Shown here piece by piece: positions 953 through 21,714 of a stretch of 64,000 nucleotides of DNA. Each line of letters starts with the position of its first letter. Positions within the stretch are counted from its first letter, which is position 1. Both the position numbers and the translations under genes were made by a program. This stretch comes from a virus. The stretch covers positions 1 to 64,000 of IMG/VR virus record IMGVR_UViG_3300043446_001791; one strand, given 5' to 3'. Below the pieces are notes generated by a model. The model searched no databases, was not told the DNA's origin, and was given only the letters and a program-made list of their open reading frames with translations.

Positions 953-1155
953 TATTCTCCTTTTATATTAGTTGGATGATCTAATGGAGTTGGGACTGTC
1001 ATTAAAGCACCACATTCGTTACATTCTCCATCTAAAAAATACATACCTATTTCATAATCTACTGGATCAAATATAACTTTAACTTTTATTATTTTTGATC
1101 CGCATAATGGACAACATGATGATGGAATACCCCTTAAATTTACATTATTCTTCAT
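952..1155 (-). CDS. Zinc-ribbon protein of unknown function
   Basis: 67 residues with C-P-L-C-G near the N-terminus and a second C-x-x-C-G (ECNECG) about 30 residues later, the two knuckles of a zinc ribbon. There are no other recognisable features. It overlaps the halogenase gene upstream by about 11 nt and the XapX-like gene downstream by TAATG, so it is translated as part of the same operon. Confidence 0.6.
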   Translation of the reverse strand: MKNNVNLRGIPSSCCPLCGSKIIKVKVIFDPVDYEIGMYFLDGECNECGALMTVPTPLDHPTNIKGE

Positions 1156-3525: not shown

Positions 3526-3526
3526 G

Positions 3527-3763
3527 TTACTTACCGCCTTCACGGACTAAAAGAACAACTGCGCCATTGTCCTCAAGAGCCTTTTTAACTCTTACCATAT
3601 ATTCTACAGCACGGCGCTTATCTTCGTCAAGTAAAGACATAAAAGATTTTTCTGATGCTCTTACAGTTATAAAACTATCATTGTCTACTAACTCTAATCT
3701 AAATCCTTTTGGAGCAAAATGATCTAGTGACCTAAAAGCCGTACGCATAGCATCTGTGTACAT
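3527..3763 (-). CDS. Hypothetical protein
   Basis: 78 residues, mixed alpha/beta in appearance, with no cysteines or membrane span. The ATG sits in TAATG with the upstream DUF2061-like gene. No family recognised. Confidence 0.45.
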   Translation of the reverse strand: MYTDAMRTAFRSLDHFAPKGFRLELVDNDSFITVRASEKSFMSLLDEDKRRAVEYMVRVKKALEDNGAVVLLVREGGK

Positions 3764-3966
3764 TATTTTCTACCCCATTGTACTTTATTCCATCCACGTT
3801 CATGAAAATAATAAAGTATAGTTTTTGTTAAAACTTCTAGGCTTGCTATACTTGCTGCCACAAAAGGTTTTTTAGTAACAAAATATGATACTAAAAATGT
3901 ATCTGTTGTTCCAACAATTCTCCACGTTATAGCCTTTGCTGCTGATCTAGATTTAGATACGTTCAT
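3763..3966 (-). CDS. DUF2061-family membrane protein, copy 1
   Basis: 67 residues from ATG 3966, chosen because CTGGAG lies 8 nt upstream; the GTG further up has none. The sequence follows the DUF2061 pattern: SRSAAKAITWRIVGTTDTF, two membrane segments, then a C-terminal YYFHERGWNKVQWGR. The family is of unknown function. A shorter diverged relative is at 12805. Confidence 0.7.
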   Translation of the reverse strand: MNVSKSRSAAKAITWRIVGTTDTFLVSYFVTKKPFVAASIASLEVLTKTILYYFHERGWNKVQWGRK

Positions 3967-4008
3967 GAAGGCCACTCCAGTTTATCGTTGCCTATTTTAT
4001 CTAATATC

Positions 4009-4767
4009 TTAGATACCCATTTCTTTACGTTTTTGCGTAGCCGATATAGCATGAATGTCTGCCCCCAAATCTACTTGCTCAATTTTATATCCAACATCAC
4101 GACCATAGACAATGTTTGTAATATTGGGCAGTCTTAATACAAGAGTATCTTTAAAAGGATTATCTTGTTTAATATAATTTTCTACCTCGCTATACTGTAA
4201 AGGATCTTTTTCTGATGTCTTGTATGTATTACGGACACCAACCAATACCTGATTAGTTCTTTTGTGTGCTTCTTCTTTTAATGCTTGATGCCCTTCGTGC
4301 CAAGGTTGATAGCGTCCAAGTTGCAGGGTAGTTGGAGCGGACCAATCAAACAAACCTCCAGCCTGTATTACAGTATTAACTTCTTGCTCTATTGTGTATC
4401 CATCTAATATTCTTAAATCAAAAATTCTAGGCTCTTCCCAGATCTTATTTGTATTTTCAAATCTGCTATGTTTAATTCTGTCAACCCAAACCACCAAGTC
4501 TGCGTCTCCAAAGGCTTCTCGTGTTTCTTCTGTAGGACAAATGAAATCAACAATTACTGGAGCAACATTTTGTTTTGCAATAAGACGTGCCATTTCTCCC
4601 ATGCGTCTGGCTTGTTCAATTCTATCTTCAGGTGTAAACGAAAGGTCTGAATTAACAGTAGATCTAACTTCATCTGCATTTAAATGAATAGCATTAATTC
4701 GTTCTTTAAGTGCTACAGCCAATGCTGTTTTTCCTGAACCAGGCAATCCTATAATCTGAATAATCAT
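4009..4767 (-). CDS. Adenylylsulfate (APS) kinase-like / nucleotidyltransferase fusion
   Basis: 252 residues. Residues 1-130 resemble APS kinase (CysC): Walker A GLPGSGKT at 7-14, then LNADEVRSTVNSDLSF and EDRIEQARRMGEMA, matching the family's D-x-V-R...DLGFS..DR segment. Residues about 145-252 form a second domain with GRYQPWHEGH (the HxGH nucleotide-binding motif) and a late ISATQKR, typical of the cytidylyl/adenylyltransferase superfamily that includes ATP sulfurylase and NMN adenylyltransferase. The fusion could turn sulfate into PAPS for the nearby sulfotransferase, but the second domain is much shorter than ATP sulfurylase, so its substrate is open. A decayed paralogue is at 11556. Confidence 0.7.
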   Translation of the reverse strand: MIIQIIGLPGSGKTALAVALKERINAIHLNADEVRSTVNSDLSFTPEDRIEQARRMGEMARLIAKQNVAPVIVDFICPTEETREAFGDADLVVWVDRIKHSRFENTNKIWEEPRIFDLRILDGYTIEQEVNTVIQAGGLFDWSAPTTLQLGRYQPWHEGHQALKEEAHKRTNQVLVGVRNTYKTSEKDPLQYSEVENYIKQDNPFKDTLVLRLPNITNIVYGRDVGYKIEQVDLGADIHAISATQKRKEMGI

Positions 4768-4940
4768 TCTATTTCTTCCTCGATTTCATCAATAGTTCTT
4801 TCGTCATGATTTTTACATACAGGACGAATAGAATATCCATCTGCTATTATGGTAATAGCAAATCCTTCGCAATAAAAACATTTAGACATTATTTCTTTAT
4901 TTTTTTGTCTTATAAAATCTAAATATTTGTTGTTATTCAT
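4764..4940 (-). CDS. Small zinc-binding protein
   Basis: 58 residues starting MNNNKYLDFIRQKNKEIM, then CFYC and a later CKNH, a possible Cys3His zinc site, ending in an acidic tail. Its TGA overlaps the ATG of the APS kinase-like gene (ATGA). A TATAAT box ends 6 nt before its ATG, so its mRNA may be leaderless. Confidence 0.65.
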   Translation of the reverse strand: MNNNKYLDFIRQKNKEIMSKCFYCEGFAITIIADGYSIRPVCKNHDERTIDEIEEEIE

Positions 4941-4946
4941 AATTTA

Positions 4947-4955
4947 ATTATATCA
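4947..4955 (-). promoter_or_regulatory. Extended -10 promoter, leaderless arrangement
   Basis: Minus strand reads TGATATAAT, then exactly 6 nt, then the ATG at 4940. The TAA stop of the GDPD-like gene is inside the -10 box. A poor -35 (TTGCAG) lies 17 nt upstream. The spacing puts the transcription start at or next to the A of the ATG. Confidence 0.55.
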
Positions 4956-5385
4956 GACCTACGTAGTCGCTGCAAACTCCAGCAATAAAATCTGGTATAT
5001 TGTTTTCTGGCCTATTAAGATGTACTAAAATACTTTTGTTTGTTACTGGCATGCCAGGATACGTCCAAATATAATGATTTGTTGTTATTGTATATTTGTC
5101 ATTTTCATGCCAAAATCCTTTATAATATTTTGGTTTATTGACTACATAATTCAATGCATCTAGATTTTTACAATGCAGCCATATTTTTTTTATATATGAG
5201 TCTAAAAAAAATTGATCAATTTTATATTGAGGATAGTCATGGCCCAAATATAATAAATTATCTACCACCCAAAAATCTATCTCAACATCGTAACCAGAAT
5301 TAATTGCTTGAATGATGTATTCAGGACTATTTTCTAATCCTTTATTTGGGCCGTATAGGTTTCCTCTGTGTGATATTTTAATCAT
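4948..5385 (-). CDS. Short glycerophosphodiester phosphodiesterase-like (PI-PLC fold) protein
   Basis: 145 residues against about 240 for typical GDPD. It has the conserved catalytic features: ISHRG at the N-terminus, an early ENSPEYI, V-E-I-D-F-W for metal binding, and LGHD with the second histidine. The C-terminal half of the barrel is shortened. The family cleaves glycerophosphodiesters or phosphodiester-linked head groups. It is the last gene of the RuBisCO-like/cupin/nucleotidyltransferase/GT61 operon (its start overlaps the RuBisCO-like stop), so a role in building or trimming a phosphodiester-linked glycan is plausible but inferred. Confidence 0.6.
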   Translation of the reverse strand: MIKISHRGNLYGPNKGLENSPEYIIQAINSGYDVEIDFWVVDNLLYLGHDYPQYKIDQFFLDSYIKKIWLHCKNLDALNYVVNKPKYYKGFWHENDKYTITTNHYIWTYPGMPVTNKSILVHLNRPENNIPDFIAGVCSDYVGLI

Positions 5386-6583
5386 TTACAAGGCCCCATT
5401 TTTCAATTGCCTTAATGTATTCTGATTTATAATCTCTATCTAGTGCCTGTCTCATGGCTCTGGCACCCCCTAAAGTGCCTTCAGGATGGCTGTGGATGGC
5501 TCCACCAACGTTAGCCATGTAATCTACACCAAAGCGACGTGCAATGGCTTCTACAAGCCCTGGATGCATACCACAACTTAATGCAGGCACAACATTATTA
5601 TCATTTAATAATCTTATAGACCTTTCAAGTTCCTGCTCATCATCACTTAGATACCCGCCCCACATACCAGTATGTATTGTATCTACTCCCATTAGGGCAG
5701 CAAGTTTACATATAACGTACCAATCTATCTTAAAATTATGCTGTGAGTTGGTTAATATTTTATCTCCGCTTTTCTGAAAATGCATAAATAATGGAAGGTC
5801 TAATTTACGTATAGAGTTATATGCTCCGAACCCACTCCAAAAGTTTACATGGATTCCATTTCCACCATTTTCATAAACTAACTTTGCTCTGTCTAAAATA
5901 GCATGAGGATCAGAATTAATGCAATGTGCAAAAACTACATTTCTTCCAGAATCCGAAATTATATTTGCAATATGTTCTACACGCTCTTCCAGTCTACAAA
6001 AAGAAGGATTAGATAAAATCTCATCTTCTTTTATAAAATCAACGCCACCATCCACTAATTCTTTAACTATATAGCCTAATTGCTTTACAGATATACCAGT
6101 CTTTGGTTTTACAATTCCGCCAAGCAGTGGCTTATTGTATTGGTTGGTAAACTCTCTAATTCCAGACATACCATATTTTGGTTTTAAGAAACTCTTCTTT
6201 ACAGATTCAGGGAATTCTATATCAACAACACGACATACCTTAAACACATCAATATCTAGTTGTCCACCCATTATCTGACATAATAAATGTGATACACCAT
6301 CATTATCCCAATCTGAATTTATTTTTGGAAATCCAATTTTTACAAATCCATTTAGTTTTGATTTTAAATTTTCTTCTTCATCGTATATAACACAAGATGA
6401 CATTTCAAATATGTCTTCTGTTTCCCAGTTGTTTCTCTGTTTAGGATTTCCTACACTTTGACCTATAGCAAGATCCCATGCTGCATCATTAAGTCTTCCA
6501 TGAACAGAGTTGACCTCAATATAATAGGTTACAACAACGCATCTATCTTTTTCTAGGTCATCTAACTCTCTATAAAACTTCAT
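5378..6583 (-). CDS. RuBisCO-like protein (form IV-type, large-subunit fold)
   Basis: 401 residues from ATG 6583, set by an AGGAG site 6 nt upstream. RuBisCO landmarks in order: GGIVKPKTG (K175/K177 region), GGVDFIKEDE (carbamylated K201 kept, with D203 and E204 metal ligands; residue 202 is E), one histidine in PLFMHFQKSGD where true enzymes have H-x-H-R, TIHTGMWGGYL (H327 kept), LSCGMHPG (S379 region) and a glycine loop NVGGAIHSHPEG. Loop-6 K334, needed for CO2 addition, is replaced by Y, and the phosphate-binding R295 is not apparent. These losses argue for a RuBisCO-like isomerase/enolase-type enzyme, not CO2 fixation. No small subunit or phosphoribulokinase is present. Neighbours are a cupin and a sugar nucleotidyltransferase. 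Confidence 0.88.
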   Translation of the reverse strand: MKFYRELDDLEKDRCVVVTYYIEVNSVHGRLNDAAWDLAIGQSVGNPKQRNNWETEDIFEMSSCVIYDEEENLKSKLNGFVKIGFPKINSDWDNDGVSHLLCQIMGGQLDIDVFKVCRVVDIEFPESVKKSFLKPKYGMSGIREFTNQYNKPLLGGIVKPKTGISVKQLGYIVKELVDGGVDFIKEDEILSNPSFCRLEERVEHIANIISDSGRNVVFAHCINSDPHAILDRAKLVYENGGNGIHVNFWSGFGAYNSIRKLDLPLFMHFQKSGDKILTNSQHNFKIDWYVICKLAALMGVDTIHTGMWGGYLSDDEQELERSIRLLNDNNVVPALSCGMHPGLVEAIARRFGVDYMANVGGAIHSHPEGTLGGARAMRQALDRDYKSEYIKAIEKWGLVND

Positions 6584-6893
6584 ATTTATCTCCTGGCATC
6601 GATGGAGTCTTAACAACTAAAACAGTACAGTCTTCTAAAAATATAGGATCAGCAATCTCCCCTGGTGTAAAAACAAATACATCTCCAGAGTTAAGTTCTT
6701 TATCCTGTATTATCATTTTGCCATTTACTAAAACATTATACTCAGTGCCAATCTTGTGATAATGTTTTGGCCAAACCTCTCCAGCCTTATGCTGAAGTAA
6801 ACCAACCTCAAATTTATCTGTTTTTAATAAAGATGGATCAAAGTTACCAATTATCCAGCCTCTAGTAAAATCTTCTATTCTTCTGATTTCCAT
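6570..6893 (-). CDS. Single-domain cupin
   Basis: 107 residues with a cupin beta-barrel pattern: WPKHYHKIGTEYNVLVNGK (the H-x-H...E metal ligands) and ELNSGDVFVFTPGE (the second motif). Small cupins next to sugar-nucleotide genes are often isomerases, epimerases or sugar-sensing proteins. The gene overlaps both the nucleotidyltransferase (18 nt) and the RuBisCO-like gene, so the three are probably made together. Confidence 0.7.
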   Translation of the reverse strand: MEIRRIEDFTRGWIIGNFDPSLLKTDKFEVGLLQHKAGEVWPKHYHKIGTEYNVLVNGKMIIQDKELNSGDVFVFTPGEIADPIFLEDCTVLVVKTPSMPGDKYEVL

Positions 6894-7603
6894 AATTTCT
6901 CCATATATAGTTCTAAGTCTGAGGGTACACCAACGGCATTATGTTGGTATGATGGTATATGGTATATACCAATCTTTTTCCCATCCATAATCATTGAATT
7001 ATAAGTAGGACCAACATAAAACTCGTTATTATATCTTTCATTATTATGGATCATTTTTGTTGCGCTGTCAACAAAGTCTCTTCCATGTTTCCAGTAATGA
7101 ATACCATTTAAAGATATATCACTTATAACTTCTTTTTCTTTTATTTGTACCACAAGGCCCTGTTTATTAATCTTAGCGTAACTATTTTTATCTGTATTTG
7201 ATGTATAAGTTACAATCATTCCATCATATTTAGAATTACGTGCTACCTGTAAAAATAAATCAGAGTCCCACCACATTATTTGATCTGAGTTAGCAATAAC
7301 TAGTTCGTCATCGTTATTTATATAATCTTTAGCAATAAGGCATGTCTCTGCTGGTCCATTAGTTAATTTATCTATTTTTATAATATTGCATGAACTGTCT
7401 ATGTTTTTTAATACAGAATATAGTTCGTCAAAAAATATACTATCTCTTATAACAAAATGATAATTGCCATTTATTGACAGAGATTCAATTGCATGTTCTA
7501 TCATTGTTTTACCATTTATTTTAATAAGTGGCTTTGTTGTTTTATAAGTTTCTATAGGAAATCTACTGCCGAGACCTGCTATAGGAATTAATATATTTGT
7601 CAT
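6875..7603 (-). CDS. Sugar-phosphate nucleotidyltransferase
   Basis: 242 residues with the NTP_transferase signature at the N-terminus: LIPIAGLGSRFPIE (G-x-G-x-R nucleotide loop), then TTKPLIKINGKTMIEHAI. A metal-binding aspartate sits in ANSDQIMW near residue 100. The family joins an NTP to a sugar phosphate (or phosphocholine-like group) to make an activated donor. It lies between the cupin and two GT61-like genes, as expected for donor supply to glycosyltransferases. The sugar cannot be told from sequence. Confidence 0.82.
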   Translation of the reverse strand: MTNILIPIAGLGSRFPIETYKTTKPLIKINGKTMIEHAIESLSINGNYHFVIRDSIFFDELYSVLKNIDSSCNIIKIDKLTNGPAETCLIAKDYINNDDELVIANSDQIMWWDSDLFLQVARNSKYDGMIVTYTSNTDKNSYAKINKQGLVVQIKEKEVISDISLNGIHYWKHGRDFVDSATKMIHNNERYNNEFYVGPTYNSMIMDGKKIGIYHIPSYQHNAVGVPSDLELYMEKLWKSEE

Positions 7604-8565
7604 AATAGGCCTAACATTTTTTCTAGATCGTATTCTATTTTACCATATTCTCTAGAAATATTAGGAATGGATATATATTTTTTATTAGCCCAAAGAGTTG
7701 CTATTAAGAAAAAATGATAATGAAATTCTGCTCTTTGTCTAACTATTTGAATGGTGCTCAACTCTATAACTGTGGTTTTATCTCTCATAAATAATAAATT
7801 AGTTAAGCCAGATCCAGACAGTCCAGCAACGACCTGTACCTGATCAAAAAATCTTATTTGATCTTCAACAGTTTTAAATATGTCAGTATCAACTATCTCA
7901 AATCCATGCTTTTTAAATAAATTTTCTACACTAATTTCGTCATCTATTCTTAAATCATCCTGATAAGGTAATTTTTCTATTTCTTCTTTTGTCATTTGAT
8001 GTAGTTGTGTTACAGATAAATTTTGTTTTGATCCTCTAGATATATATACTTTTTTATTATTGGGCAAAGATTTATTTCTATATTTACTTATAAGATCTTC
8101 TAAAATATTTATGTATTCTCCACACATTTCTATATTTTCATAATAATAAAAATTTGAAAAAATAGGTGGATATTTTGAATGTATTTGTGTTACAGAAAAC
8201 TTAATATTATAATTTCTTAATACTTGAACAACAAAACTTCCAGTTGAGTGGAAGGCAGAAAGTTCTTTGCTTGGATGTAATAGTATAACCTCTATGTCAG
8301 GATCTTTTTTATACTCCCATAATATTGGTGCTAGAGTGTTTAATAGACTATGAAAAAAATTTGTTTCAAATCTAACTACTATTTTTTTAAATTTTGTTTC
8401 TTCAAAAAAATTATCAGCATATTGTATTTTTTCTAAACGAAAATCTTTATTATTCCAATCTTCTTTTGAAATCTCTGTTATTATAGGCTTACCTGCATTA
8501 AAGTCATCCTCTATAGTATATATTCCTGGATAATGTACAGTATCTACTGGACTTTGCCTTATCAT
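7600..8565 (-). CDS. GT61-like glycosyltransferase, copy 1
   Basis: 321 residues. The C-terminal half carries GT61 hallmarks: VYISRGSK, an ENLFKKHGFEIV segment, then EDQIRFFDQVQVVAGLSGSGLTN (the family's 'hGaGL.N' loop) and MRDKTTVIELS. The N-terminal half is variable, as in the family. Paralogue of the next gene, with which it overlaps by ATGA. Probably transfers the sugar activated by the neighbouring nucleotidyltransferase; acceptor unknown. Confidence 0.72.
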   Translation of the reverse strand: MIRQSPVDTVHYPGIYTIEDDFNAGKPIITEISKEDWNNKDFRLEKIQYADNFFEETKFKKIVVRFETNFFHSLLNTLAPILWEYKKDPDIEVILLHPSKELSAFHSTGSFVVQVLRNYNIKFSVTQIHSKYPPIFSNFYYYENIEMCGEYINILEDLISKYRNKSLPNNKKVYISRGSKQNLSVTQLHQMTKEEIEKLPYQDDLRIDDEISVENLFKKHGFEIVDTDIFKTVEDQIRFFDQVQVVAGLSGSGLTNLLFMRDKTTVIELSTIQIVRQRAEFHYHFFLIATLWANKKYISIPNISREYGKIEYDLEKMLGLL

Positions 8566-9488
8566 AAATAATTTAAAAATCCTTTATTATTAAAATACTC
8601 TATTATTATATCAGATTTTCTTTCATGGGGTATTGCAATATATGTATGTTTTTTTGCCCAAGAGAATGCTACATAGAATGGGTGTACCTGCTGATTGCCA
8701 CCAATTAGAACTGGTGTCTGCAACTCTACAACCGTCTGGCCTGGTTGCATAAACATTAGATTTGCCATCCCAGATCCAGAAGGGCAGATCATAGTCTTTA
8801 CATTATTAAAAAATATAGCCTGTTCTTCAAAAGTTTTAAAATTTTCTGGATATACAATTTCAAACCCACGACCTTTAAAATAGTTTATTAAAACATCTTC
8901 GTCATCAATTCTTAAATCACTTTTTATTCTAAGTGTGTCCTCATCTCTACCATTTGAAATACTGACAACAGACTTAGGTGTAACTTTTGATCTTGCTAAA
9001 TATACTATTTTTTCTGGAGTATTGTTTCTGTCTATAAAAGAACTGCAATAGTCATATACTTCTGAAAATACATATGAAGAAAATGGAATTACCTTCATAT
9101 AATATGCATCGTTTACATTAATCTCTTCTTCTTTTAATTTTACTATTTCATATTTTACTCCTTTGTTATTTAACATTTCTAAAATAAATTTACCATGAGT
9201 TATCTCTAAATCGCCTTCATGAAAATCTAATCCAAACATCAAAATAAAATGTGCATCTTTATTTAAATTAAAGTAATAAAGTATGTATTGAACCATATTA
9301 CAAAAAGCATGCAAAAAGTTTTTTTGCCACATAACCAAATGAACTTCTTGCTTGTCTATAAATCTTCCAAGAGCATCTTTCTCTTCTACCTTTGTTAAAA
9401 CAGGCCAAACAGTTCCTTCTTTTGGGATAGTAACATTATATCTGCCACGTAAAACATTAGGATTGCCGTAGTCACCATAAACAAACAT
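8562..9488 (-). CDS. GT61-like glycosyltransferase, copy 2
   Basis: 308 residues with the same C-terminal layout as its neighbour: VYLARSKV, RIDDEDVLINYFKGRGFEIV, EQAIFFNNVKTMICPSGSGMAN, MFMQPGQTVVELQTP. GAAAGGTAGCAAAA precedes the ATG. The two copies are well diverged, so they may act on successive sugars or different acceptors. First gene of the RuBisCO-like operon, immediately after the WhiB-like gene. Confidence 0.72.
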   Translation of the reverse strand: MFVYGDYGNPNVLRGRYNVTIPKEGTVWPVLTKVEEKDALGRFIDKQEVHLVMWQKNFLHAFCNMVQYILYYFNLNKDAHFILMFGLDFHEGDLEITHGKFILEMLNNKGVKYEIVKLKEEEINVNDAYYMKVIPFSSYVFSEVYDYCSSFIDRNNTPEKIVYLARSKVTPKSVVSISNGRDEDTLRIKSDLRIDDEDVLINYFKGRGFEIVYPENFKTFEEQAIFFNNVKTMICPSGSGMANLMFMQPGQTVVELQTPVLIGGNQQVHPFYVAFSWAKKHTYIAIPHERKSDIIIEYFNNKGFLNYL

Positions 9489-9493
9489 TTTTG

Positions 9494-9778
9494 CTACCTT
9501 TCATTTGTTAGTCCAATCCAAACTTCGTTCCAGTCTTCTTGAGATCTGTGTGAATTAAATTCTTTAGAAACTTCTCCACTTTCTAAATATACTCCACCCC
9601 AAACACCCCATTCTTTTTGAGAAACGCCTACAGAAAAGCATGTTTTCATTACAGGGCATTCTGAACATAACTTATCTATCGCTGATCTAAAATTTTCAGA
9701 CTCTTCATATTTATCAAAAAATAAATTAGTATCATAATCTAAACAAGAGCCTTCGTCTTTCCATTTAAGTTTATGCAT
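9494..9778 (-). CDS. WhiB-family iron-sulfur transcription factor
   Basis: 94 residues. Visible: an early Cys in GSCLD, then C-S-E-C-P and a third spacing Cys in MKTCFSVG (C...CxxC...C, the 4Fe-4S ligands), followed by EWGVWGGVY (the G-[VI]-W-G-G turn) and a polar tail. WhiB proteins are confined to Actinobacteria and their phages and bind sigma factor A region 4 to steer transcription. This is the strongest single clue to the host. Phage versions can alter host septation or phage gene expression. Its start codon is inside an inverted repeat (9776-9807). Confidence 0.88.
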   Translation of the reverse strand: MHKLKWKDEGSCLDYDTNLFFDKYEESENFRSAIDKLCSECPVMKTCFSVGVSQKEWGVWGGVYLESGEVSKEFNSHRSQEDWNEVWIGLTNER

Positions 9779-11555: not shown

Positions 11556-12251
11556 TTATACCACCTCTATGATATTAGGAAGGACAATTATATCAGCATT
11601 AGGCAAATCTTTAAAAATAATTTCCTTAATCTGATTAATAGAAAATTTATCTTCATCACTCATACCCATACAATGCCTTATGCCTATTACTACATTTCTA
11701 GTTTCAGAAAGCATATTATATTTTTTTAAATCGTCTTCAGTCCAGGGCTGGAATTTTCCAACCATCAATGTTTGTTCTGGCTTCCAGTCAAATGTTTCAT
11801 ATTTTTTAATAACGCTAAACGCTCTAGTTGGCAAAGCATCAAGATATTCATTACCAGTATTTGTTATTTTAAAGTCATATTCATTTTCGTTTGGCTCTTC
11901 CCACAAAATAGTCTTACCAAATTTATCTACAAACTCTTTCTTATCGGTAGTATCAACCCAAACTGATATGTCTGGAAACTTTACAGTGTTAGACAAATGC
12001 ATATACCCACTAATATCTCTAAACTGATCTCTCGATTCCTTGGTAGGGAAATACCCACTAACAACAATTGACGAATTATAATCTTTTGTAAAAAAAATTG
12101 ATATAGTTCTTAGCCACCTAGCATATTGGGCTTGCAACTCAGCCATTGGGAGATCGGTATCAAGAACATGCCAAGAGTTTGTTCTTTCTGCATATGCTAT
12201 AGAAACATCAGTTCTTGTTTTTTCATCCATTCCAAAAAATTGTACGATCAT
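11556..12251 (-). CDS. Degenerate paralogue of the APS kinase/nucleotidyltransferase fusion
   Basis: 231 residues that line up with the 252-residue protein at 4009 along its whole length: the same MI[VI]Q start, a W-E-E-P segment in the middle, FDWKPEQTLMVGKFQPW against FDWSAPTTLQLGRYQPW, and a shared V-[IV]-G-[IV]-R strand. The catalytic parts have gone: GLPGSGKT is GMDEKTRT, HEGH is TEDD, and the final ISAT segment is missing. The frame is intact, so it is probably a non-enzymatic partner or a repurposed protein and not a dead gene. It overlaps the next gene by ATGA. Confidence 0.65.
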   Translation of the reverse strand: MIVQFFGMDEKTRTDVSIAYAERTNSWHVLDTDLPMAELQAQYARWLRTISIFFTKDYNSSIVVSGYFPTKESRDQFRDISGYMHLSNTVKFPDISVWVDTTDKKEFVDKFGKTILWEEPNENEYDFKITNTGNEYLDALPTRAFSVIKKYETFDWKPEQTLMVGKFQPWTEDDLKKYNMLSETRNVVIGIRHCMGMSDEDKFSINQIKEIIFKDLPNADIIVLPNIIEVV

Positions 12252-13027: not shown

Positions 13028-13750
13028 TCACTTTGCTTGTGATATTACAAGCGTATAGTGTGAATAAAACATATGAATATTAGTTTTCCATCCGTATACT
13101 AGATCAAAGTTAAATGGAAACTTTCTGTAATTACTCATAATGTCTTTCATTTTTGTTGTCTTACCCCTTAATATTTTTTGAGTAGGTTTGCTAATATCAC
13201 AACAAACTGCTATTTCTCTGTCTGGGAAAACTTCTGCTATATCATCAATATATTTATCTAAAAATGGTATACATATTAAAATAATAGGGCAAGAAAGACT
13301 TTTAATATTATTTAAAAATTCTTTTGTATTCTTATCCCTAAGTCTTCCTGCAAAATAAAATTCTCCAAATTTTCCTTCAAATCCAGAAAAAAATAAAGAT
13401 TGTAATACAGAACTTGGCCCAGGTATTATGTCAATATCTATGTTCATTTTGATTAAAGCATGTAGTATTTCTGTTCCAGGATCCTGCACTGTTGGGTATC
13501 CGTCATTTGAAACAATTAATATATTTTTGTTATTATTAACACCATTAATAATAATATCCAATATTTTTTTTGTATTGTCTTTTGTTTCATATATATTTAA
13601 AATATTTGCTTCATTATCTTTACATAATTGCTCAAAAACATTTTTTGATTCAACAATTGCTATATCTGTTATTTTTAAATAATTTCTTAATGCAATAGCA
13701 ATATGAGAACTATCTCCTATTGGAGTAGCAGCAAATACTACCTTTTTCAT
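13028..13750 (-). CDS. RsmI-like SAM-dependent methyltransferase (tetrapyrrole methylase fold)
   Basis: 240 residues from ATG 13750, which overlaps the upstream stop (TAATG). Family marks: VFAATPIGDSSHIAIAL (RsmI 'VaTPIGNl.DI'), a VESKN in place of EDTR, ILIVSNDGYPTVQDPG (RsmI 'vSDaGtP.isDPG') and IIPGPSSVLQSLFFSGF. RsmI methylates the ribose of C1402 in 16S rRNA. Key EDTRH residues have diverged, so the substrate may differ. It shares an operon with the carbamoyltransferase, suggesting either ribosome modification or a tailored biosynthetic methylation. Confidence 0.72.
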   Translation of the reverse strand: MKKVVFAATPIGDSSHIAIALRNYLKITDIAIVESKNVFEQLCKDNEANILNIYETKDNTKKILDIIINGVNNNKNILIVSNDGYPTVQDPGTEILHALIKMNIDIDIIPGPSSVLQSLFFSGFEGKFGEFYFAGRLRDKNTKEFLNNIKSLSCPIILICIPFLDKYIDDIAEVFPDREIAVCCDISKPTQKILRGKTTKMKDIMSNYRKFPFNFDLVYGWKTNIHMFYSHYTLVISQAK

Positions 13751-15186
13751 TATCGGACTATCTTTGTGTTGTAGGTTTTTTCCCATTCAAATATGTCTGC
13801 CTTATCATTTAATAGTGGCTGACCTTTTATATTTAAACTTGTATTTAATAATATTGGAATTCCTGTAATAGAATACCAGTTAGATAATACAGTGTATAGT
13901 CCTGGATGCTGATCTTTATTTACAGTCTGAACTCTTGAAGTTCCGTCTTTGTGAACAACTGACGGTATCTTATCTGGTTGTAAGCATTTAACTGCATATT
14001 GCATATATGGACTTGCAAAGTTCATATCAAACCATTTGCTTGCATGTTCTTCCATAACTACTGGAGCAAAGGGCCTAAACAATTCTCTCTTTTTTATAAG
14101 GTTAACCTTATCTTTAATATTTGGATCCCTTGGGTCTGCCAAAATAGATCTGTTTCCGAGTGCTCTTGGGCCATACTCCGCTTTCCCCGTTGCAACCGCT
14201 ACGATTTTATTTCTAATTAATTCGGTAATAATTTCTGTTACAGGATATTCTCCGCCTAAATCATATCCCAAATATGGGTGCTCCCAATTAATATGACTTC
14301 CATAAGATGCTGCTGCTGCGCCTAAAGAAGATCCAGCATCTCCAGGATTAGGCATAATCCAAACATCATCAAACATTTTCCAAAGCATGGTATTTGCTGC
14401 ACAGTTTAATGCACATCCACCCATAAAAACAAGATTGCGCTTGCCCGTAAGTTTTTGTGCCATTGCCATAAAGTTAACTAATCTGTCTTCATATACTTTT
14501 TGAACTGCTGCTGCAATATCAAACTTATCTTGCTCCAATATTGGACTATTCCAATCTAATATTCCGTTATGAAATGCATATTTTTGTTCTTCTATGTTTG
14601 GGAAATATTCTTTTACCTTTAAATAGTATTTAGTCCAATCACCGTAGGCTGCCATACCCATAAAAATATACTCTTCCTCGTTTGGCTTTAGCCCTACCAG
14701 TTGCGTGAATGCTGAATAAAACAATCCAAAACTAAATGGATAATTTTTTTTATAAACTTGCTTAATATTTGATCCTTGGCCAACCCATATGGTTGAAGTG
14801 TTATATTCTCCAATTGCATCTAATACTACTATAACTGCATCGTTAAACTTACTTGTATAGTATCCTGCTGCTGCATGAGAATAATGATGGCTAAATGATT
14901 CACGTGGAATCCATTTGAGTTCTTTTTTCTGCAAATAATATGGCTTATCTCCACCAAATCCGCCACGGGTAGCAATTCTAATTTTCTTTAGCAACCTATT
15001 TTCATAGTATGCAATCTTGTTTGGCTTTCCATATGAAAGTGCATACTCTATTAATTTGTCATTAGTAAACCAATCATTTTTTTGTTTACTAAATCTTTCA
15101 GCATGTGCAGCAAATAATATTTCTCCATCTTCTATTAAAGAAATAGAAGCATCATGTGTGGTTTCATTTATTCCAAGAATTTTCAT
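13750..15186 (-). CDS. NodU/CmcH/TobZ-type O-carbamoyltransferase
   Basis: 478 residues from ATG 15186, preceded by AAGGA; the longer open frame adds an unsupported extension. Starts MKILGINETTHDASISLIEDG, followed by AERFSKQKND, HHYSHAAAGYY (metal-binding histidines), FMGGCALNCAAN and AYGPRALGNRSILADPRD, the full set of motifs of this family. The enzymes move a carbamoyl group from carbamoyl phosphate, via carbamoyl-AMP, to a hydroxyl of a sugar or other acceptor. Phage relatives can carbamoylate hydroxymethylated bases, but the acceptor here is unknown. Confidence 0.88.
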   Translation of the reverse strand: MKILGINETTHDASISLIEDGEILFAAHAERFSKQKNDWFTNDKLIEYALSYGKPNKIAYYENRLLKKIRIATRGGFGGDKPYYLQKKELKWIPRESFSHHYSHAAAGYYTSKFNDAVIVVLDAIGEYNTSTIWVGQGSNIKQVYKKNYPFSFGLFYSAFTQLVGLKPNEEEYIFMGMAAYGDWTKYYLKVKEYFPNIEEQKYAFHNGILDWNSPILEQDKFDIAAAVQKVYEDRLVNFMAMAQKLTGKRNLVFMGGCALNCAANTMLWKMFDDVWIMPNPGDAGSSLGAAAASYGSHINWEHPYLGYDLGGEYPVTEIITELIRNKIVAVATGKAEYGPRALGNRSILADPRDPNIKDKVNLIKKRELFRPFAPVVMEEHASKWFDMNFASPYMQYAVKCLQPDKIPSVVHKDGTSRVQTVNKDQHPGLYTVLSNWYSITGIPILLNTSLNIKGQPLLNDKADIFEWEKTYNTKIVR

Positions 15187-15853
15187 ATCTGTCCTTAAAT
15201 TGATTATACCAGAAAGCATGGATACTTTTGCCAGGGTGATGGTTATCGTCACCATGCAATTCTTCTCCGTAATAGTCTATTTGCTTAAAATCTGGAGCAC
15301 GAAATGTTTTAAATTGTTCAAACATCTGATAATTTTTTTTATCTGCCCATGATGTAGAAAAAAGACTTATATTATTTTTTTTACAATAATTTTCTAAAAT
15401 ATAATAATAGTTATAAACAAAGTTATTTATAAAATGTTTTTTAATATACCTTGATTCCCTGTGTATTGGAGGAAGTAAAAGAAAAATATAATTTGGTATA
15501 CCATATAACTCAATATATTTAATTGTATTTGTTATAATTTCTATTATTGATCCCCCTGGAAGTGATATATTAAAAAATCCAGATGTGTTATTAAAATCTG
15601 AATATACTTTATATGCCCAGGTGTCTTCCATATTAATGCCAATGCCAGCAGTTATTGAGCAACCATTAAACAATATATGGGTTTTTTCTTGATGATTTTT
15701 TATTAATTCATCGCATCTAAGACCATTAGAATTTAATTTGTATGTAACATTATTCTTACCTATGTGTTTTTTATAATCTGGCATCCCCTCTTCTTGCCAA
15801 AATATAGAAGCAATTTCTGGGCTATCTAATAAATATTTTTCATAAAATTGCAT
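15164..15853 (-). CDS. SGNH/GDSL-type hydrolase-like protein
   Basis: 229 residues. HILFNGCSITAGIGI gives the block-I nucleophile serine, followed by a NISLPGGS glycine block and a late DDNHHPG with the Asp-x-x-His pair. Family members remove or add acyl groups on glycans and lipids. No signal peptide is evident, so it acts inside the cell. Lies between the carbamoyltransferase and two 2OG oxygenases. The block order fits, but overall similarity to known members is modest. Confidence 0.6.
   Translation of the reverse strand: MQFYEKYLLDSPEIASIFWQEEGMPDYKKHIGKNNVTYKLNSNGLRCDELIKNHQEKTHILFNGCSITAGIGINMEDTWAYKVYSDFNNTSGFFNISLPGGSIIEIITNTIKYIELYGIPNYIFLLLPPIHRESRYIKKHFINNFVYNYYYILENYCKKNNISLFSTSWADKKNYQMFEQFKTFRAPDFKQIDYYGEELHGDDNHHPGKSIHAFWYNQFKDRYENSWNK
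15203..15211 (-). promoter_or_regulatory. Extended -10 promoter of the carbamoyltransferase
   Basis: Minus strand TGGTATAAT, about 17 nt before the ATG at 15186, with AAGGA in between. No good -35. Confidence 0.45.
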
Positions 15854-16524
15854 TATTCCTGACCAGTCGACATAATTGGAGTTTTCATATTATGGTACCA
15901 GTGTGGCATTGAATACCTAGTTCCATTTATAATAGGGGCAACCTCATGTATATATAAATAATTTGATGGAAAGTAAATTATGCTTCCAGGCTCTGGCTTC
16001 ATTCTAATATTAGAATTTGGAAAACAAATTTCTCCTCCATCATAATCATTATTTAAGTACATAACAGTTGACAAAACTCTACTGCTAACCCCATGATCTT
16101 GGTGTGCTGGTAAATATCCGCCCTTTTCATATCTTAGTAAATGTATGCTGTATTCTCTTGACTTTATGTTTCTTCCAGCAAATGGATAAATTACATTACT
16201 ATAATGATTTGTTGCAGCATCTAAAGCATCATAAAGTCTTTTGGATACATAATATTGTTCTTCATAGTAATAATCATTTGACTTAACGTCTTCTGGCTTA
16301 GGAAAAAATTTTTGCCAACAAAAGGTTTCCATAGTTCCAGCACTTTCATTTTGCCAAGCATGCCAAGGCTTTACCTCTGTAAATGATTCTGCGTGTTCAT
16401 TATTTTTATACTTGTTGTCTATAGAAGAAACAATATCAATTATTTCTTGAGGATTCTGTAGTGCATTTTTATAATATACTAAACCTAAATCTAAAATATC
16501 ATAATCATAAATAATTGAACTCAT
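15853..16524 (-). CDS. 2OG-Fe(II) oxygenase, prolyl-4-hydroxylase-like, A
   Basis: 223 residues. The double-stranded beta-helix core is clear: GGYLPAHQDHG (iron ligands H-x-D), YLNNDYDGGEICFPN, PGSIIYFPS, then YIHEVAPIINGTRYSMPHWYH with the second His ligand and the 2OG-binding Arg. All iron and 2OG residues are present, so it should be active. Such phage enzymes hydroxylate proteins or small molecules. It overlaps a second oxygenase by 20 nt. Confidence 0.85.
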   Translation of the reverse strand: MSSIIYDYDILDLGLVYYKNALQNPQEIIDIVSSIDNKYKNNEHAESFTEVKPWHAWQNESAGTMETFCWQKFFPKPEDVKSNDYYYEEQYYVSKRLYDALDAATNHYSNVIYPFAGRNIKSREYSIHLLRYEKGGYLPAHQDHGVSSRVLSTVMYLNNDYDGGEICFPNSNIRMKPEPGSIIYFPSNYLYIHEVAPIINGTRYSMPHWYHNMKTPIMSTGQE

Positions 16525-17107
16525 GCTCTGGTGCCCTCCATTTTGGATTTTTGTCTTCTCCTAAGAAATCAGGATCTGCGTGTTGCGGTAAAGAAGTATG
16601 CATATATAAGGCAGTATATCTATGACCAGAAGTTACCTCAGTAATTCCATGTATATATTCACTACCAGCGCTTGGGAAAAAAACTGCAGAATATCTTTTA
16701 GGTTGATAGATAAAGTCTTGATTTGGGAAAAATATTTTACCACCTTCATACTCTGGTGATTCATTTAAATAAATAATTGTACTCCACTCTATCCATGGCT
16801 CTGGGTCTTGTGCATCTAAATGTAGTGCGCCCTTTGTACCAGTTGTCCAATGAGACCCAAACGCCTTAAATACATAAATAGGACTCTTAAATCCATTTAA
16901 TTCTTTGTGTATTTCATTTGATTTGTCTCCATATTTTTTTAATATAGACATTATTGTTGGATTGTATGGCAAAGAAGTTCCACCAAATCTTTCTTTATAA
17001 TAATCTGGGTAAGGCAACCTAACAGCCATTGGGTCATTCTGTTGTTGAATTAAAGTTAGAGCATCTATAGGCTCTATGAAATTATCAATAATATGTATTC
17101 TATGCAT
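16505..17107 (-). CDS. 2OG-Fe(II) oxygenase, prolyl-4-hydroxylase-like, B
   Basis: 200 residues from ATG 17107, set by CCTCCT (GGAGG) 6 nt upstream. Core: KGALHLDAQDPEPW (H-x-D), IYLNESPEYEGGKIFFPN, YSAVFFPSAGSEYIHGITEV and GHRYTALYMH (second His and Arg). Catalytic set complete. Paralogue in fold of the preceding entry but with little close identity, so the two probably have different substrates. Confidence 0.82.
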   Translation of the reverse strand: MHRIHIIDNFIEPIDALTLIQQQNDPMAVRLPYPDYYKERFGGTSLPYNPTIMSILKKYGDKSNEIHKELNGFKSPIYVFKAFGSHWTTGTKGALHLDAQDPEPWIEWSTIIYLNESPEYEGGKIFFPNQDFIYQPKRYSAVFFPSAGSEYIHGITEVTSGHRYTALYMHTSLPQHADPDFLGEDKNPKWRAPEHEFNYL

Positions 17108-17134
17108 TTTTCCTCCTATTAACATTATACACTA

Positions 17135-17989
17135 TCAGTATATATAATGTAATCTGCCTATAAATTTTCTTCCATCTAGTTTATCAAATGGGTTATTATA
17201 ACAATCATATTCAACGTCATTTGTTAAAAATGGTAATGGATAAATAGAATCTTTATTTATATTATGATGATCTATAAAATTTAAAACAGATCTTTTGCTG
17301 CCAGGATCAAAATACTTAGATGGTTCATTATTTATAATTTTTATAATCTCATTATAGTTATGGGTTAAAGAGTATGGGACATATACTGTGTCAATAGAAT
17401 TAAAACCTTCAACAGAATAAAAATCAGTTGGACATGAATATATATCTACTCCTCTAGTAAACCAATAAAATGATAAATACTCAGCCTCTCCTTTATATTT
17501 TAAAAATGTTGGATAGTTTGTATTCTTAAATAATTCAGTTTTAAGAAAGATAAAATCTTTATTTACTATCTGAGATAAAGAAAAATTGTTTGATTCAACG
17601 CTATTATTATATATAAAAAAGTTATCGTTTGTTATATTTGGTATTCCCTTTCCAGATATTACTGAGTTATCTTTATAATTTTCTATTAATATACTGTCCC
17701 ATTTTTTTGAAAGAAAAATATTATCTGAAATTATTAATGTAAAATCTTCTTTAATATTTCTTGCAATTTCAAATCTGTAGTGACATTGCCCGTATGGATG
17801 GTCCCAAAACTTATGCTTATACTCCACATTTTTAATGTTATCATAATAAGTATTTTTAATTATTGGACTTTGATCTATAATGTATACATTAACTGTATGG
17901 CTACCAGATAAATTTTCATTTATTTGCCTTACAGTTTCTTTAAGCAATTTACCTTTATATGAATAAATTACAACGCCTATGCTACTCAT
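17135..17989 (-). CDS. Glycosyltransferase-like protein (GT-A, family-2 type)
   Basis: 284 residues from ATG 17989, which lies at the end of the upstream gene. MSSIGVVIYSYKGKLLKETV opens a nucleotide-binding strand-helix; HKFWDHPYGQCHYRFEIA and DFTLIISDNIFLSKKWDS match the acceptor/D-x-D region of GT-A enzymes (here ISDNIF). Resembles GlcNAc-type transferases that act on proteins or glycans. AT-rich. No signal or membrane anchor. Confidence 0.6.
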   Translation of the reverse strand: MSSIGVVIYSYKGKLLKETVRQINENLSGSHTVNVYIIDQSPIIKNTYYDNIKNVEYKHKFWDHPYGQCHYRFEIARNIKEDFTLIISDNIFLSKKWDSILIENYKDNSVISGKGIPNITNDNFFIYNNSVESNNFSLSQIVNKDFIFLKTELFKNTNYPTFLKYKGEAEYLSFYWFTRGVDIYSCPTDFYSVEGFNSIDTVYVPYSLTHNYNEIIKIINNEPSKYFDPGSKRSVLNFIDHHNINKDSIYPLPFLTNDVEYDCYNNPFDKLDGRKFIGRLHYIY

Positions 17990-18764
17990 CGTCGTGACTT
18001 GCATCCTTTGAAAATATATTCTTTATGCCATAAATTTTTTTTCTCCAAGTTGTTTTTTTATAATATCCATATAGTAAAGATCTTCTGTCTTCGGCCTTTA
18101 ATAATTTTTTATCTACAGAATCATATGACTCATCTATACTCATTTCCCAATCATCTCTTTTAAAAGGAATTATTTGCATAATTGGAGTACCCTTTGGAAT
18201 TACACCTTGAAATCCACGCTTCAAAAAGAATGCAATAAATACAGGAAGGCCCCATATATCTGATTCGACTATTCCAGACATAGTGTAAAATGGCAAATCA
18301 TGTCTATTCATTGGATGAGTAATTAAAACAGAATATCCTGGTGGAGTATCATAAAACCAATTCATTCTAAATCCGTAGTGCATGGGGTGACAGTTATCTG
18401 GAACTACTATATCATTTGTAGGCCTTTTATCTAATAACATTATGCTGCCATTCCAAGATAGTTTTGGTCTACCGTCTGGATCTAAATCAACATGTAAATC
18501 ATCTTCTAAAAGATACATATACCCTGCCGTTAAGGCATCAAAAAATGGTAAACACATTTTTGTTGCAACCTGTGCGCCGTCAGAACCTAAATGATTTACA
18601 GGATTTAAATATCTATCATCATTCCAATTATCATGTTTTGCAAGACTTTTGTACCATTCTGGAACATGACGCACTGCTGGTTCTGGTGCAACTTGACATA
18701 CTGACCAATGTGGCTGTGCATTTAATGCTGGAGTAAAAATTATGTCTAATGGCTTTTCGCTCAT
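17982..18764 (-). CDS. Conserved phage-type hypothetical protein, paralogue 1
   Basis: 260 residues. FTPALNAQPHWS, VPEWYKSL, KMCLPFFDALTAGYMYLLEDDLHV and GFQGVIPKGTPIMQIIPFKRDDWE are shared with the next gene, which shows a common family. It looks like a beta-rich soluble protein; the family occurs in other phages and has no assigned function that I can name. Overlaps the next gene by ATGA. Confidence 0.6.
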   Translation of the reverse strand: MSEKPLDIIFTPALNAQPHWSVCQVAPEPAVRHVPEWYKSLAKHDNWNDDRYLNPVNHLGSDGAQVATKMCLPFFDALTAGYMYLLEDDLHVDLDPDGRPKLSWNGSIMLLDKRPTNDIVVPDNCHPMHYGFRMNWFYDTPPGYSVLITHPMNRHDLPFYTMSGIVESDIWGLPVFIAFFLKRGFQGVIPKGTPIMQIIPFKRDDWEMSIDESYDSVDKKLLKAEDRRSLLYGYYKKTTWRKKIYGIKNIFSKDASHDDE

Positions 18765-19489
18765 TTAAATCTCTTCATGCTTCTATATTTATTTTTATAT
18801 CCATTACTAAATGTTGATCTTAAAAAAATTCGTTGATGCCCTATTTCTTTTTTAACTTGTTCATGAGAAACTATTTCTGATTCCCAATCATCTCTTTTCA
18901 TTGGTATAATCTGGACAAGAGGTGTGCCTTGTTTAATTACGCCTACAAAACCTTTTTTAATAAAAAAAGAAAAATGTCCGTCTGTTATAAACTTATCCGT
19001 ATCTACAAATCCACCTAAAGCCCTGAACGGTAAATCATCTTGATGGTTTGGATGTAGGACTAATGTGCTATATCCTTTTTCTGTTTTAAATGCCCAGAAC
19101 GGCATTATTCTAAATAATTGTTTATGATACATATCTGGATCTACAGGATAATGGTTGTATTGCTCTGCAGAATGTGTTGCAAACATATCTGTACCAAATC
19201 TTTTCATGGGGTTTGGACACTGTATGTTTAATTTGTTTGGGTCACTAGCATCTATATAAATATCCATCGGCAAAGATAAAATATAGCCAGCAGTCATTAG
19301 ATCAAAAATTGGCATACATTTTTTAACAGTTCCATTAAATGAGCCAGATGCTAGTCCTCGCTCTTCGTCTACGGTTGCTGGTTGTCTTTTATACCACTCT
19401 GGAACAAACTTTGACGCTGGTACTGGAGGAGGTGTAAAGATTGCTGCTTCTTCGCTAAATGGGTAAAATTTTATCTTTCGTGAACTCAT
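18761..19489 (-). CDS. Conserved phage-type hypothetical protein, paralogue 2
   Basis: 242 residues with the same order of motifs as its neighbour: FTPPPVPASKFVPEWYKRQP, KKCMPIFDLMTAGYILSLPMD, GFVGVIKQGTPLVQIIPMKRDDWE. A tandem duplication followed by divergence. AAGGAG lies 5 nt before the ATG and an extended -10 at 19516. Role unknown. Confidence 0.6.
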   Translation of the reverse strand: MSSRKIKFYPFSEEAAIFTPPPVPASKFVPEWYKRQPATVDEERGLASGSFNGTVKKCMPIFDLMTAGYILSLPMDIYIDASDPNKLNIQCPNPMKRFGTDMFATHSAEQYNHYPVDPDMYHKQLFRIMPFWAFKTEKGYSTLVLHPNHQDDLPFRALGGFVDTDKFITDGHFSFFIKKGFVGVIKQGTPLVQIIPMKRDDWESEIVSHEQVKKEIGHQRIFLRSTFSNGYKNKYRSMKRFK

Positions 19490-20144
19490 AAAACTCCTTA
19501 ATTTTGTCTATTAACATTATATCAGTTGTTTGAACCTCAATATCAAACATTGGAGACTGTTTTTTTATTTTGCCAAATTCATTATCTAACATATGAGATC
19601 CAGAGTTCTTAAAATGAAAATGAACAAAAGGAGGCTCTATCTCAGTTGTATTTGGGGGTATCCTATTAAATTTAATAGAATCCTCATATATAAAAAACGG
19701 ACTTTCTGGTGGTTGCTTAAAGGTAATGTTTATTTCATAATCAATTACCCAGGGAACATAAAATCTGTATATTCCGTCAAAACAGTTTTCTGGCAAACTA
19801 TATTCTTTTCCAGAACTATAATATTGTCTTATCCAGGGTCTATCTATATTATAGAACTTACCCTCTCTTCGGTAATGATCTATTAATAAAAACATTTCAG
19901 CATGATTACCCTGTCTTAAGGTAAAGCCATTATTGTTTATATTAATTAATTGAGGCGGTGGATATAGCGTAGCAGCATAGTGATTAATTGGCTTTAATAT
20001 TGAATCATTAAAAATTTTATTTTCTTTTACTGGTATATACGATAGCCATCTTTTATATGGAACTGCTATTTTATTTATATATAAAAAACTTTCATTTTTA
20101 GAATTTTCCCAAAGATCCCAGTCTTTTTGAAATCCAGTAAGCAT
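19455..20144 (-). CDS. Hypothetical protein, possibly related to the two downstream paralogues
   Basis: 229 residues from ATG 20144; a TTG at 20162 is the longer option. Rich in aromatic and proline residues (PPPQL, KQPPESPFFIYED, PPFVHFHFKNSG). Placement and beta-rich look suggest a partner of the two downstream paralogues, but I see no shared motif strong enough to call homology. Confidence 0.5.
   Translation of the reverse strand: MLTGFQKDWDLWENSKNESFLYINKIAVPYKRWLSYIPVKENKIFNDSILKPINHYAATLYPPPQLININNNGFTLRQGNHAEMFLLIDHYRREGKFYNIDRPWIRQYYSSGKEYSLPENCFDGIYRFYVPWVIDYEINITFKQPPESPFFIYEDSIKFNRIPPNTTEIEPPFVHFHFKNSGSHMLDNEFGKIKKQSPMFDIEVQTTDIMLIDKIKEFYEFTKDKILPI
19516..19524 (-). promoter_or_regulatory. 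Extended -10 promoter
   Basis: Minus strand TGATATAAT, 26 nt upstream of the ATG at 19489, inside the end of the preceding gene. AAGGAG follows in the leader. Confidence 0.45.
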
Positions 20145-20145
20145 C

Positions 20146-21714
20146 TCATCTTGTTGGCTCAACCTTTATCACATCCCCAAACTCTCCAGATTCAATAACA
20201 GTAATCTTAATTCCATTATACACTGCGCTTTCTCCTAACTTTAAAGATGCATTAGAATTATGGCCAGGAGACTTATTATCCATATTAGATGCCTGTATCA
20301 TTTTTTTATTTTCTGGCAAAATTAATCGAATTCCATCGGCGTGAGATGTTACTGACATATCAATCAAATATACAAGTGCGCCTTCAGAAATCTGTGGCAG
20401 TTTATAGTTTATACCCTCTGCTCTTTGAGACTCAACAACAATAGCCTTTTGTTTATCTATTGGGATTACGACTGCCTTATTTCTTGTGCTCTTTACTGTA
20501 GATGGTGCTATATATGCAACAGACTCACGATCTTTATCTAAACATATAACTTGTGAATCAGAAATATATCCAGCAATCCATTTATGCCATGTTAATAGAT
20601 CATATGAGGACGCCCAATTAATTAATCCCCACCATTGAGGAGAATCTTTTTGGGAATGATTGTTGTCATCAAAACCAATTCCTACATGCATTAATTCATG
20701 TATCCACCAGGTTGGGAATGAAAAATTTCTTTCTTGTGCCAGATCTCCACCACTTGGCATGACAGATATAGTTACAAAACCCTCATCTGTTCTTATTGTG
20801 CCAATACCTACTTGGTCTCCAACTATTTTATTTGTACTAGGTGGAAATAAAACTAATACTATATTTGCATTAGTAAAATTAATTTGACTATCTATTGACT
20901 TTATTAAATCAGATGAAAATCTTTCTGCATCAAATTGTTTTCTTTCATGAATTAAATTATAAGAAGATATGTTACCTGGAAAATATAAATATTTATCTGG
21001 TACTTTTATTTGTATGTTTGATCCATTGTCGGATGCTTGCTTTGTCCAATCAATAAGAAAATCAAAATACTTCTTAAAATCTTCAGATGGCTTTGTATTT
21101 GAGTTTGGAATATCATTAGAATATAAGGGAACTACTTGGTATACAGTATTTGGTGATGGATGCTTTAGGTAATCTATCCAAAACTTATCGTTATTTTTGA
21201 ACCCTAATGTATTTTGTTTTTGTGGATTTTGATTTAATTTACACTCTAAAATATTTTTTGTAACAAAATTATTTTGTATTTTAGGAAGAGATGTAAGTTC
21301 TGATGTTTTTGGAACCCTAAACGGACTTAGACATCCTCCACCATTTATATGTTTCTTTTCAAACTGCTTCCATTCGCTAGGGGTATCGGGATCTAATTCA
21401 CACGGACTTAAAAAGTATTTTTTATTTGATGTTGGTAACTCTGTTTTAGTTTGTGTTGCTGTAGGCGTAGGTGTTGGTGTAGGCTGAACAACAACAGGCT
21501 TTTTGACAGCCCATCTATAAACTGTTCCACTTTTTAAGCAAATACGATTATTTTCAATTTTATTTACCTTTGATTTAGGACACGCTGTTGTAGTAACTGT
21601 ATAGTCGCTTACACTATTTTGTGCAACTGGTGTTGGTGTGGGTGCTAATAAAGATGCTACAGTAACCGTAGAAATACAAACAATACACATTTTAAATAAA
21701 GATCCTAACGACAT
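20146..21714 (-). CDS. Secreted M6-like metalloprotease
   Basis: 522 residues. Residues 1-25 form a signal peptide or anchor, followed by a P/T-rich linker (PTPTPTPTATQT) near residues 75-90. The catalytic HELMH zinc motif lies in WWIHELMHVGIGFDD, followed by an H/D-bearing stretch and DLLTWHKWIAGYI, the segment that follows the active site in immune-inhibitor-A/M6 peptidases. A later EGALVYLIDMS also fits that family. An exported phage protease could cut host surface layers or other extracellular proteins. Its operon starts with the strong promoter at 21902-21930. Confidence 0.7.
   Translation of the reverse strand: MSLGSLFKMCIVCISTVTVASLLAPTPTPVAQNSVSDYTVTTTACPKSKVNKIENNRICLKSGTVYRWAVKKPVVVQPTPTPTPTATQTKTELPTSNKKYFLSPCELDPDTPSEWKQFEKKHINGGGCLSPFRVPKTSELTSLPKIQNNFVTKNILECKLNQNPQKQNTLGFKNNDKFWIDYLKHPSPNTVYQVVPLYSNDIPNSNTKPSEDFKKYFDFLIDWTKQASDNGSNIQIKVPDKYLYFPGNISSYNLIHERKQFDAERFSSDLIKSIDSQINFTNANIVLVLFPPSTNKIVGDQVGIGTIRTDEGFVTISVMPSGGDLAQERNFSFPTWWIHELMHVGIGFDDNNHSQKDSPQWWGLINWASSYDLLTWHKWIAGYISDSQVICLDKDRESVAYIAPSTVKSTRNKAVVIPIDKQKAIVVESQRAEGINYKLPQISEGALVYLIDMSVTSHADGIRLILPENKKMIQASNMDNKSPGHNSNASLKLGESAVYNGIKITVIESGEFGDVIKVEPTR

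Follow-up and report, generated by a model that had tools for sequence, protein, structure and literature searches.

A class III O-carbamoyltransferase that recurs with 2OG oxygenases and an SGNH-type protein in freshwater phages

A carbamoyltransferase (CT), 2OG oxygenases and an SGNH-type protein form a real recurrent set of genes in phages whose source habitat is freshwater, and the CT is widespread in the contigs of these phages, where it is found at variable sites. The set is described here in a stretch of 64,000 bases, hereafter the window, from a viral record of 66,136 bases; genes for a DNA polymerase, a primase, a helicase and minor-tail proteins are also found in the window. The host is probably an actinobacterium, since the phage carries a gene for a WhiB-type regulator (9494-9778, minus strand). 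We propose that the CT cassette decorates a glycan or glycoprotein carried by the virion or by the host surface, a reading to which we give slightly less than an even chance.

The open reading frame of the CT spans positions 13750-15255 of the minus strand. The biological start is almost certainly the ATG at 15186, about 6 nt downstream of an AAGGA ribosome-binding site, and the predicted product has 478 aa. Both class III domains are matched well over the Pfam cut-offs (Carbam_trans_C, 4.5e-53, 180 bits against 27; Carbam_trans_N, 1.6e-40, 140 bits against 24), and PHROG 1601, "Nol-like carbamoyltransferase", is matched over almost the whole length (8.7e-111). The nearest solved structures are those of NovN, GdmN and TobZ. 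For GdmN, H133, H137, D156 and D333 are named as the iron ligands and H27 as the base (PMC9633730). Mapped through the printed alignment, allowing for a tag of 20 residues that offsets chain 7vzq, these residues correspond in the phage protein to H100, H104, D123, D283 and H11, and they are also present in the aligned cyanophage and cellular CTs, with the exception of one truncated marine ORF that has no H11 region. From its domains and aligned residues, the protein is assigned to the class III O-carbamoyltransferases of the TobZ/GdmN/NovN type, and the complete O-carbamoyltransferase reported in the earlier note is borne out, with both domains, the iron ligands and the base in place. Against the NodU equivalog model NF041651 it scores 184 bits, the curated cut-off being 1000. 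V331 of the phage CT stands in the alignment where cellular homologs commonly have a Trp. The TobZ residues W408, G421 and R423 are the differential residues of an eLife study, the text of which gives no residue-group assignment (PMC8670742), and the same sites in the phage CT are most likely V, G and R. No conclusion on DNA-type CTs is drawn from this combination, because the text gives no such assignment and V, I, M or L at the site of TobZ W408 is common among the phage CTs examined.

The CT belongs to a series of minus-strand genes, from 21714 to 13028, that mostly overlap by 1-35 nt or lie about 10 nt apart (Table 1). This arrangement agrees with the single operon that had been suggested for the CT and its companions, which is retained here as a putative operon. 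The start of the RsmI-like gene overlaps the stop of the CT as TAATG at 13750, and this gene therefore runs from 13028 to 13750.

Table 1. Genes of the carbamoyltransferase cassette and of its upstream flank (positions in the window).
Position	Strand	Product	Basis
13028..13750	-	RsmI-like (tetrapyrrole methylase family) methyltransferase	PF00590 4.5e-15
13750..15186	-	Class III O-carbamoyltransferase, 478 aa, complete	Pfam, PHROG, aligned residues
15164..15853	-	SGNH-fold hydrolase or acyltransferase-like protein, 229 aa	Structure model, Foldseek, invariant columns
15853..16524	-	2OG-Fe(II) oxygenase, P4H-like	PF13640 6.2e-16; HxD 141/143, H193, R203
16505..17125	-	2OG-Fe(II) oxygenase	PF13640 9.6e-8; HxD 102/104, H159, R169
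17135..18004	-	Glycosyltransferase-like protein	Window copy E 0.0024, weak
17982..18764	-	DUF6065/phrog_7084-like protein	DUF6065 9e-5, below cut-off; phrog_7084 2.5e-33
18761..19489	-	DUF6065/phrog_7084-like protein	phrog_7084 4e-48; modelled
19455..20162	-	Cassette member of no recognised family; found together with the block of DUF6065-like, glycosyltransferase-like, 2OG and CT genes	
20146..21714	-	Upstream gene, weak match to M6-type metalloproteases	TIGR03296 0.0022, below cut-off

The two 2OG oxygenases read earlier from the open reading frames are both matched by PF13640 over the cut-off, with the HxD...H iron triad and the 2OG Arg intact. The gene product at 15164-15853, initially seen as acyl-hydrolase-like, has no Pfam or PHROG match in its window copy, and no informative Pfam match was obtained for 41 of its relatives. 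Its predicted SGNH fold was confirmed by an AF2 model (pLDDT 86.8, pTM 0.87), which matches TesA (E 2.8e-7) and other SGNH/GDSL hydrolases in a Foldseek search of the PDB. In this protein GCS66 is block I and D203xxH206 is block V: S66 and H206 are invariant among the relatives, and D203 is present in the window copy, with DxxH in the consensus. As for block III (GxND), no invariant Asn is found in the expected region of the relatives' alignment, and a variant block III is possible. A search of phage records with the SGNH protein gave no match.

Relatives of the glycosyltransferase-like protein match the GlcNAc family PF11397 over the cut-off (1.6e-8 and 7.8e-6). The two DUF6065-like proteins are tandem paralogues; the model of the one at 18761-19489 (pLDDT 77) is tentatively similar to the dUTPase fold (Foldseek E 3.4e-4, target TM 0.76), and a search of PDB sequences with the family profile returned nothing. 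Members of this family are also found in haloarchaeal tailed viruses and, in HSTV-4, lie near ribonucleotide reductase and tail-fibre genes. The RsmI-like protein, so described in the earlier note, falls within the PF00590 superfamily, and its best NCBIfam match, TIGR00096, reaches 68.4 bits against a cut-off of 167.9; it is therefore considered family-like and not an RsmI equivalog. The upstream gene at 20146-21714 flanks the cassette and is rarely shared (four of the best 80 of 131 CT loci).

Relatives of the CT are encoded in 131 candidate stretches of viral contigs, of which the best 80, with identities of 73-93%, were kept. The gene neighbours vary strongly among these 80 loci, which indicates that the CT is mobile, both from site to site and from one lineage to another. 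When the loci were reduced to 36 nonredundant ones, an SGNH or 2OG gene was found within three genes of the CT in 33 (shuffled mean 14.5); the SGNH gene satisfied this interval in 25 (shuffled mean 5.4) and a 2OG oxygenase in 19 (shuffled mean 10.8). The three remaining sites, L132, L150 and L155, have neither in the scored interval. A reciprocal search with the oxygenase at 16505-17125 retrieved a CT in the same stretch at 18 of 23 loci, and the CT was present in all ten of the records from this search that were checked. Also recurrent beside the CT is a block composed of the 19455-type protein, one or two DUF6065-like proteins and the glycosyltransferase-like protein. The modification pathway that the earlier note had read from this neighbourhood is partly supported: the CT, the oxygenases and the SGNH protein do recur together, as the search that it proposed shows, and hydroxylation before carbamoylation would be the suggested order of steps. 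The methyltransferase is found beside the CT only occasionally, in four of the best 80 of 131 loci, and was discarded as a core partner.

At the site flanked by the genes at 21911 and 12510, 20 distinct CT-less variants could be compared with 24 CT-bearing ones. SGNH, DUF6065-like, glycosyltransferase-like and 19455-type genes are all absent from the 20 CT-less variants, and are found in 13, 13, 12 and 12-13, respectively, of the 24 CT-bearing ones (Fisher P 5e-5 to 1e-4, for loci sampled by their CT, with relatedness partly removed and with shorter CT-less intervals). In these freshwater phages, the hosts of which are probably actinobacteria, the CT is carried as cargo at a variable site. In another lineage, the CT is located downstream of tail-type genes, accompanied by genes for an NAD-dependent epimerase and for a protein weakly similar to fucosyltransferases, and in a further one it adjoins a DXD glycosyltransferase. 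A CT-SGNH pair is also present in a distant marine phage, the CT of which is 42% identical.

A second cassette (1145-9488, minus strand), common to several phages, is present in the window and includes two GT61 glycosyltransferases, an NTP transferase, an APS-kinase/nucleotidyltransferase-like gene, a tryptophan halogenase (1145-2683) and a gene for a RuBisCO large-chain-like protein (5378-6616, minus strand; PF00016 5.6e-42). The latter keeps the KPK and KxDE motif residues, and its loop-6 Lys appears to be replaced, pointing to a phage-borne RuBisCO-like protein of form IV; close copies (85-95%) are found in six other viral loci and a 53% copy in one more. A second gene of the tryptophan-halogenase family (39162-40613, minus strand) lies among the replication genes. 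The product of 11556-12251 (minus strand), judged by eye, seems to be related to the kinase/nucleotidyltransferase protein at 4009-4767 and to have degraded, and some relatives cluster together.

Pairs of CT and SGNH genes are also a feature of cellular genomes. Among the best 80 cellular CT loci, iterated profiles detected an SGNH-type gene at 200 bases or less from the CT in 20, the pairs occurring among loci L196-L270. All seven of the CT-adjacent genes tested carry GDSL or AlgX-type Pfam domains, five of them over the curated cut-off. As in the phage, an SGNH/GDSL or AlgX-like gene directly adjoins a class III CT, the cellular proteins being longer than the phage SGNH protein. This shared pairing suggests a general two-enzyme unit, and no description of its function in cells was found in the literature searched. 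The closest cellular CTs (45-47%) belong to a Deltaproteobacteria MAG, a Gammaproteobacteria MAG contig, Streptomyces and Plantactinospora. Proteins similar to the kinase/nucleotidyltransferase at 4009-4767 are encoded on the Gammaproteobacteria contig. From open reading frames read by eye, the Streptomyces CT adjoins aminotransferase and radical-SAM genes and that of Plantactinospora adjoins LanKC-like and ABC transporter genes.

From homology, the C-terminal YrdC-like domain of the CT would convert carbamoyl phosphate and ATP into carbamoyl-AMP, and the iron-bearing N-terminal Kae1-like domain would hand the carbamoyl group to a hydroxyl. The CT would act together with the 2OG oxygenases, the SGNH hydrolase or acyltransferase and the glycosyltransferase-like protein: the oxygenases may supply or alter hydroxyls, one of which would be carbamoylated, and the SGNH protein may act on acyl groups of the same polymer, either removing or transferring them. 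The phage could benefit through altered adsorption, escape from receptor recognition or control of superinfection. A glycan target fits the neighbouring genes better than a nucleobase, and it is favoured by the tail-type, epimerase, fucosyltransferase-like and DXD glycosyltransferase neighbours of the other lineages, by the cellular CT-SGNH pairs and by the location of the CT of cyanophage S-SSM7 near heptose and nucleotide-sugar genes. Against it are the weak glycosyltransferase match of the window's own copy, the three sites with no scored partner, the natural-product-like neighbourhoods of some cellular CTs and the possible dUTPase fold of the DUF6065-like partner, which could point to nucleotides.

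The neighbourhoods of the Streptomyces and Plantactinospora CTs make a small-molecule target possible: as in antibiotic or RiPP clusters, the CT, the halogenases and the oxygenases may tailor a peptide or a diffusible metabolite that is produced in the course of infection. The best-characterised class III CTs, GdmN, NovN and TobZ, do act on natural products, the two named cellular relatives are among the closest, and the phage has two tryptophan-halogenase genes; yet the annotation of the window revealed no NRPS, PKS or precursor peptide, and the glycosyltransferase-like partners, together with the tail-type genes near the CT in another lineage, speak against it, so that we hold this to be unlikely. 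The oxygenases lead to a different proposal, in which they hydroxylate side chains of a structural protein of the phage and the CT or the glycosyltransferase acts on these hydroxyls or on an attached sugar. Peptides are the classical substrates of P4H-like 2OG enzymes, and the 16505-type oxygenase has a CT in its company in nearly every case. However, a 2OG gene is near the CT in only the 19 nonredundant loci given above, and since the CT often has no oxygenase close by, these enzymes are not needed in general for its acceptor; modification of a protein is judged quite unlikely.

A nucleobase had been named as one of the possible targets, and a real precedent exists in a sewage phage CT that acts on 5-hydroxymethylcytosine (5hmC; eLife 2021, PMC8670742). 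For that enzyme, co-occurrence with a thymidylate-synthase-family gene is confined to modified contigs, while on unmodified contigs CTs adjoin genes such as glycosyltransferases (PMC8670742). No gene of the thymidylate-synthase/dCMP-hydroxymethylase family was found in the phage's own record, in 34 further records with a CT or in additional near relatives, in a search that included records of 98-123 kb, most of the records being possibly incomplete. The search does detect the family in its positive control, Stenotrophomonas phage RAS14, a jumbo phage with a CT and a thymidylate synthase, and the contigs of six RAS14 relatives gave no thymidylate synthase. The TET/JBP family PF12851 was not matched over the cut-off in any of 35 records, the best 2OG protein of the window scoring 13.2 bits against 34.9. 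With neither a thymidylate-synthase-like hydroxymethylase nor a Tet/JBP protein over the cut-off, a nucleobase target is disfavoured, and carbamoylation of a 5-hydroxymethylpyrimidine in hypermodified DNA is regarded as very improbable; it is chiefly the tentative dUTPase fold modelled for the DUF6065-like partner that could bring a nucleotide-related role back into consideration. Pyrimidine supply has also been proposed for a phage carbamoyltransferase, that of cyanophage S-SZBM1 (PMC9146016), and one published note even assigns a gene of the class III CT type to pyrimidine synthesis. The protein described here matches no aspartate or ornithine carbamoyltransferase family and belongs to the Carbam_trans_N/C (class III) family; this role is ruled out at the family level and its probability is negligible.

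Among the glycan or glycoprotein readings, a bolder version, which we think improbable, is that the dUTPase-fold DUF6065-like, 2OG, SGNH and CT proteins assemble, on the virion or the host surface, a conjugate that is hydroxylated, carbamoylated and acylated. Such a pathway, if true, would be exchangeable and unlike the known glycan or DNA-modification systems of phages, and its product would be an anti-recognition or receptor-altering coat. Class III CTs are common in marine and freshwater phages, and their acceptor is mostly unproven. The recurrence of the cassette, the CT-less versions of the same site and the specific partners make it testable which hydroxyl is carbamoylated by the phage and with what effect on adsorption or defence.

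Among known systems, GdmN, NovN and TobZ have the two-domain class III architecture in common with the phage CT, which keeps the iron ligands and the catalytic His of GdmN; the phage enzyme differs in being phage-encoded, shorter (478 aa) and devoid of the GdmN-type C-terminal dimerisation domain. The 5hmC carbamoyltransferase (PMC8670742) shares the Pfam domain pair and the phage origin, but it pairs with a thymidylate-synthase-family hydroxymethylase that is not found here; the two are set apart by description and not by sequence. The literature searched contained no report of carbamoylated phage glycans and no description of the freshwater cassette with its specific members. The "Nol-like" CTs of cyanophages (PHROG 1601; S-SSM7, P-RSM4, S-CAM8) belong to the phage CT's own protein family and likewise cluster with 2OG oxygenases. 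In S-SSM7, the CT genes lie beside 2OG, tryptophan halogenase and heptose genes and a nucleotide-sugar epimerase, in a region that belongs to the LPS clusters described in PMC3037559, and a phage CT with oxygenases is therefore not new. Nevertheless, the cyanophage CTs are only about 30-33% identical to that of the freshwater phage, their carriers are T4-like myoviruses of cyanobacteria, and their partner genes are mostly of other families.
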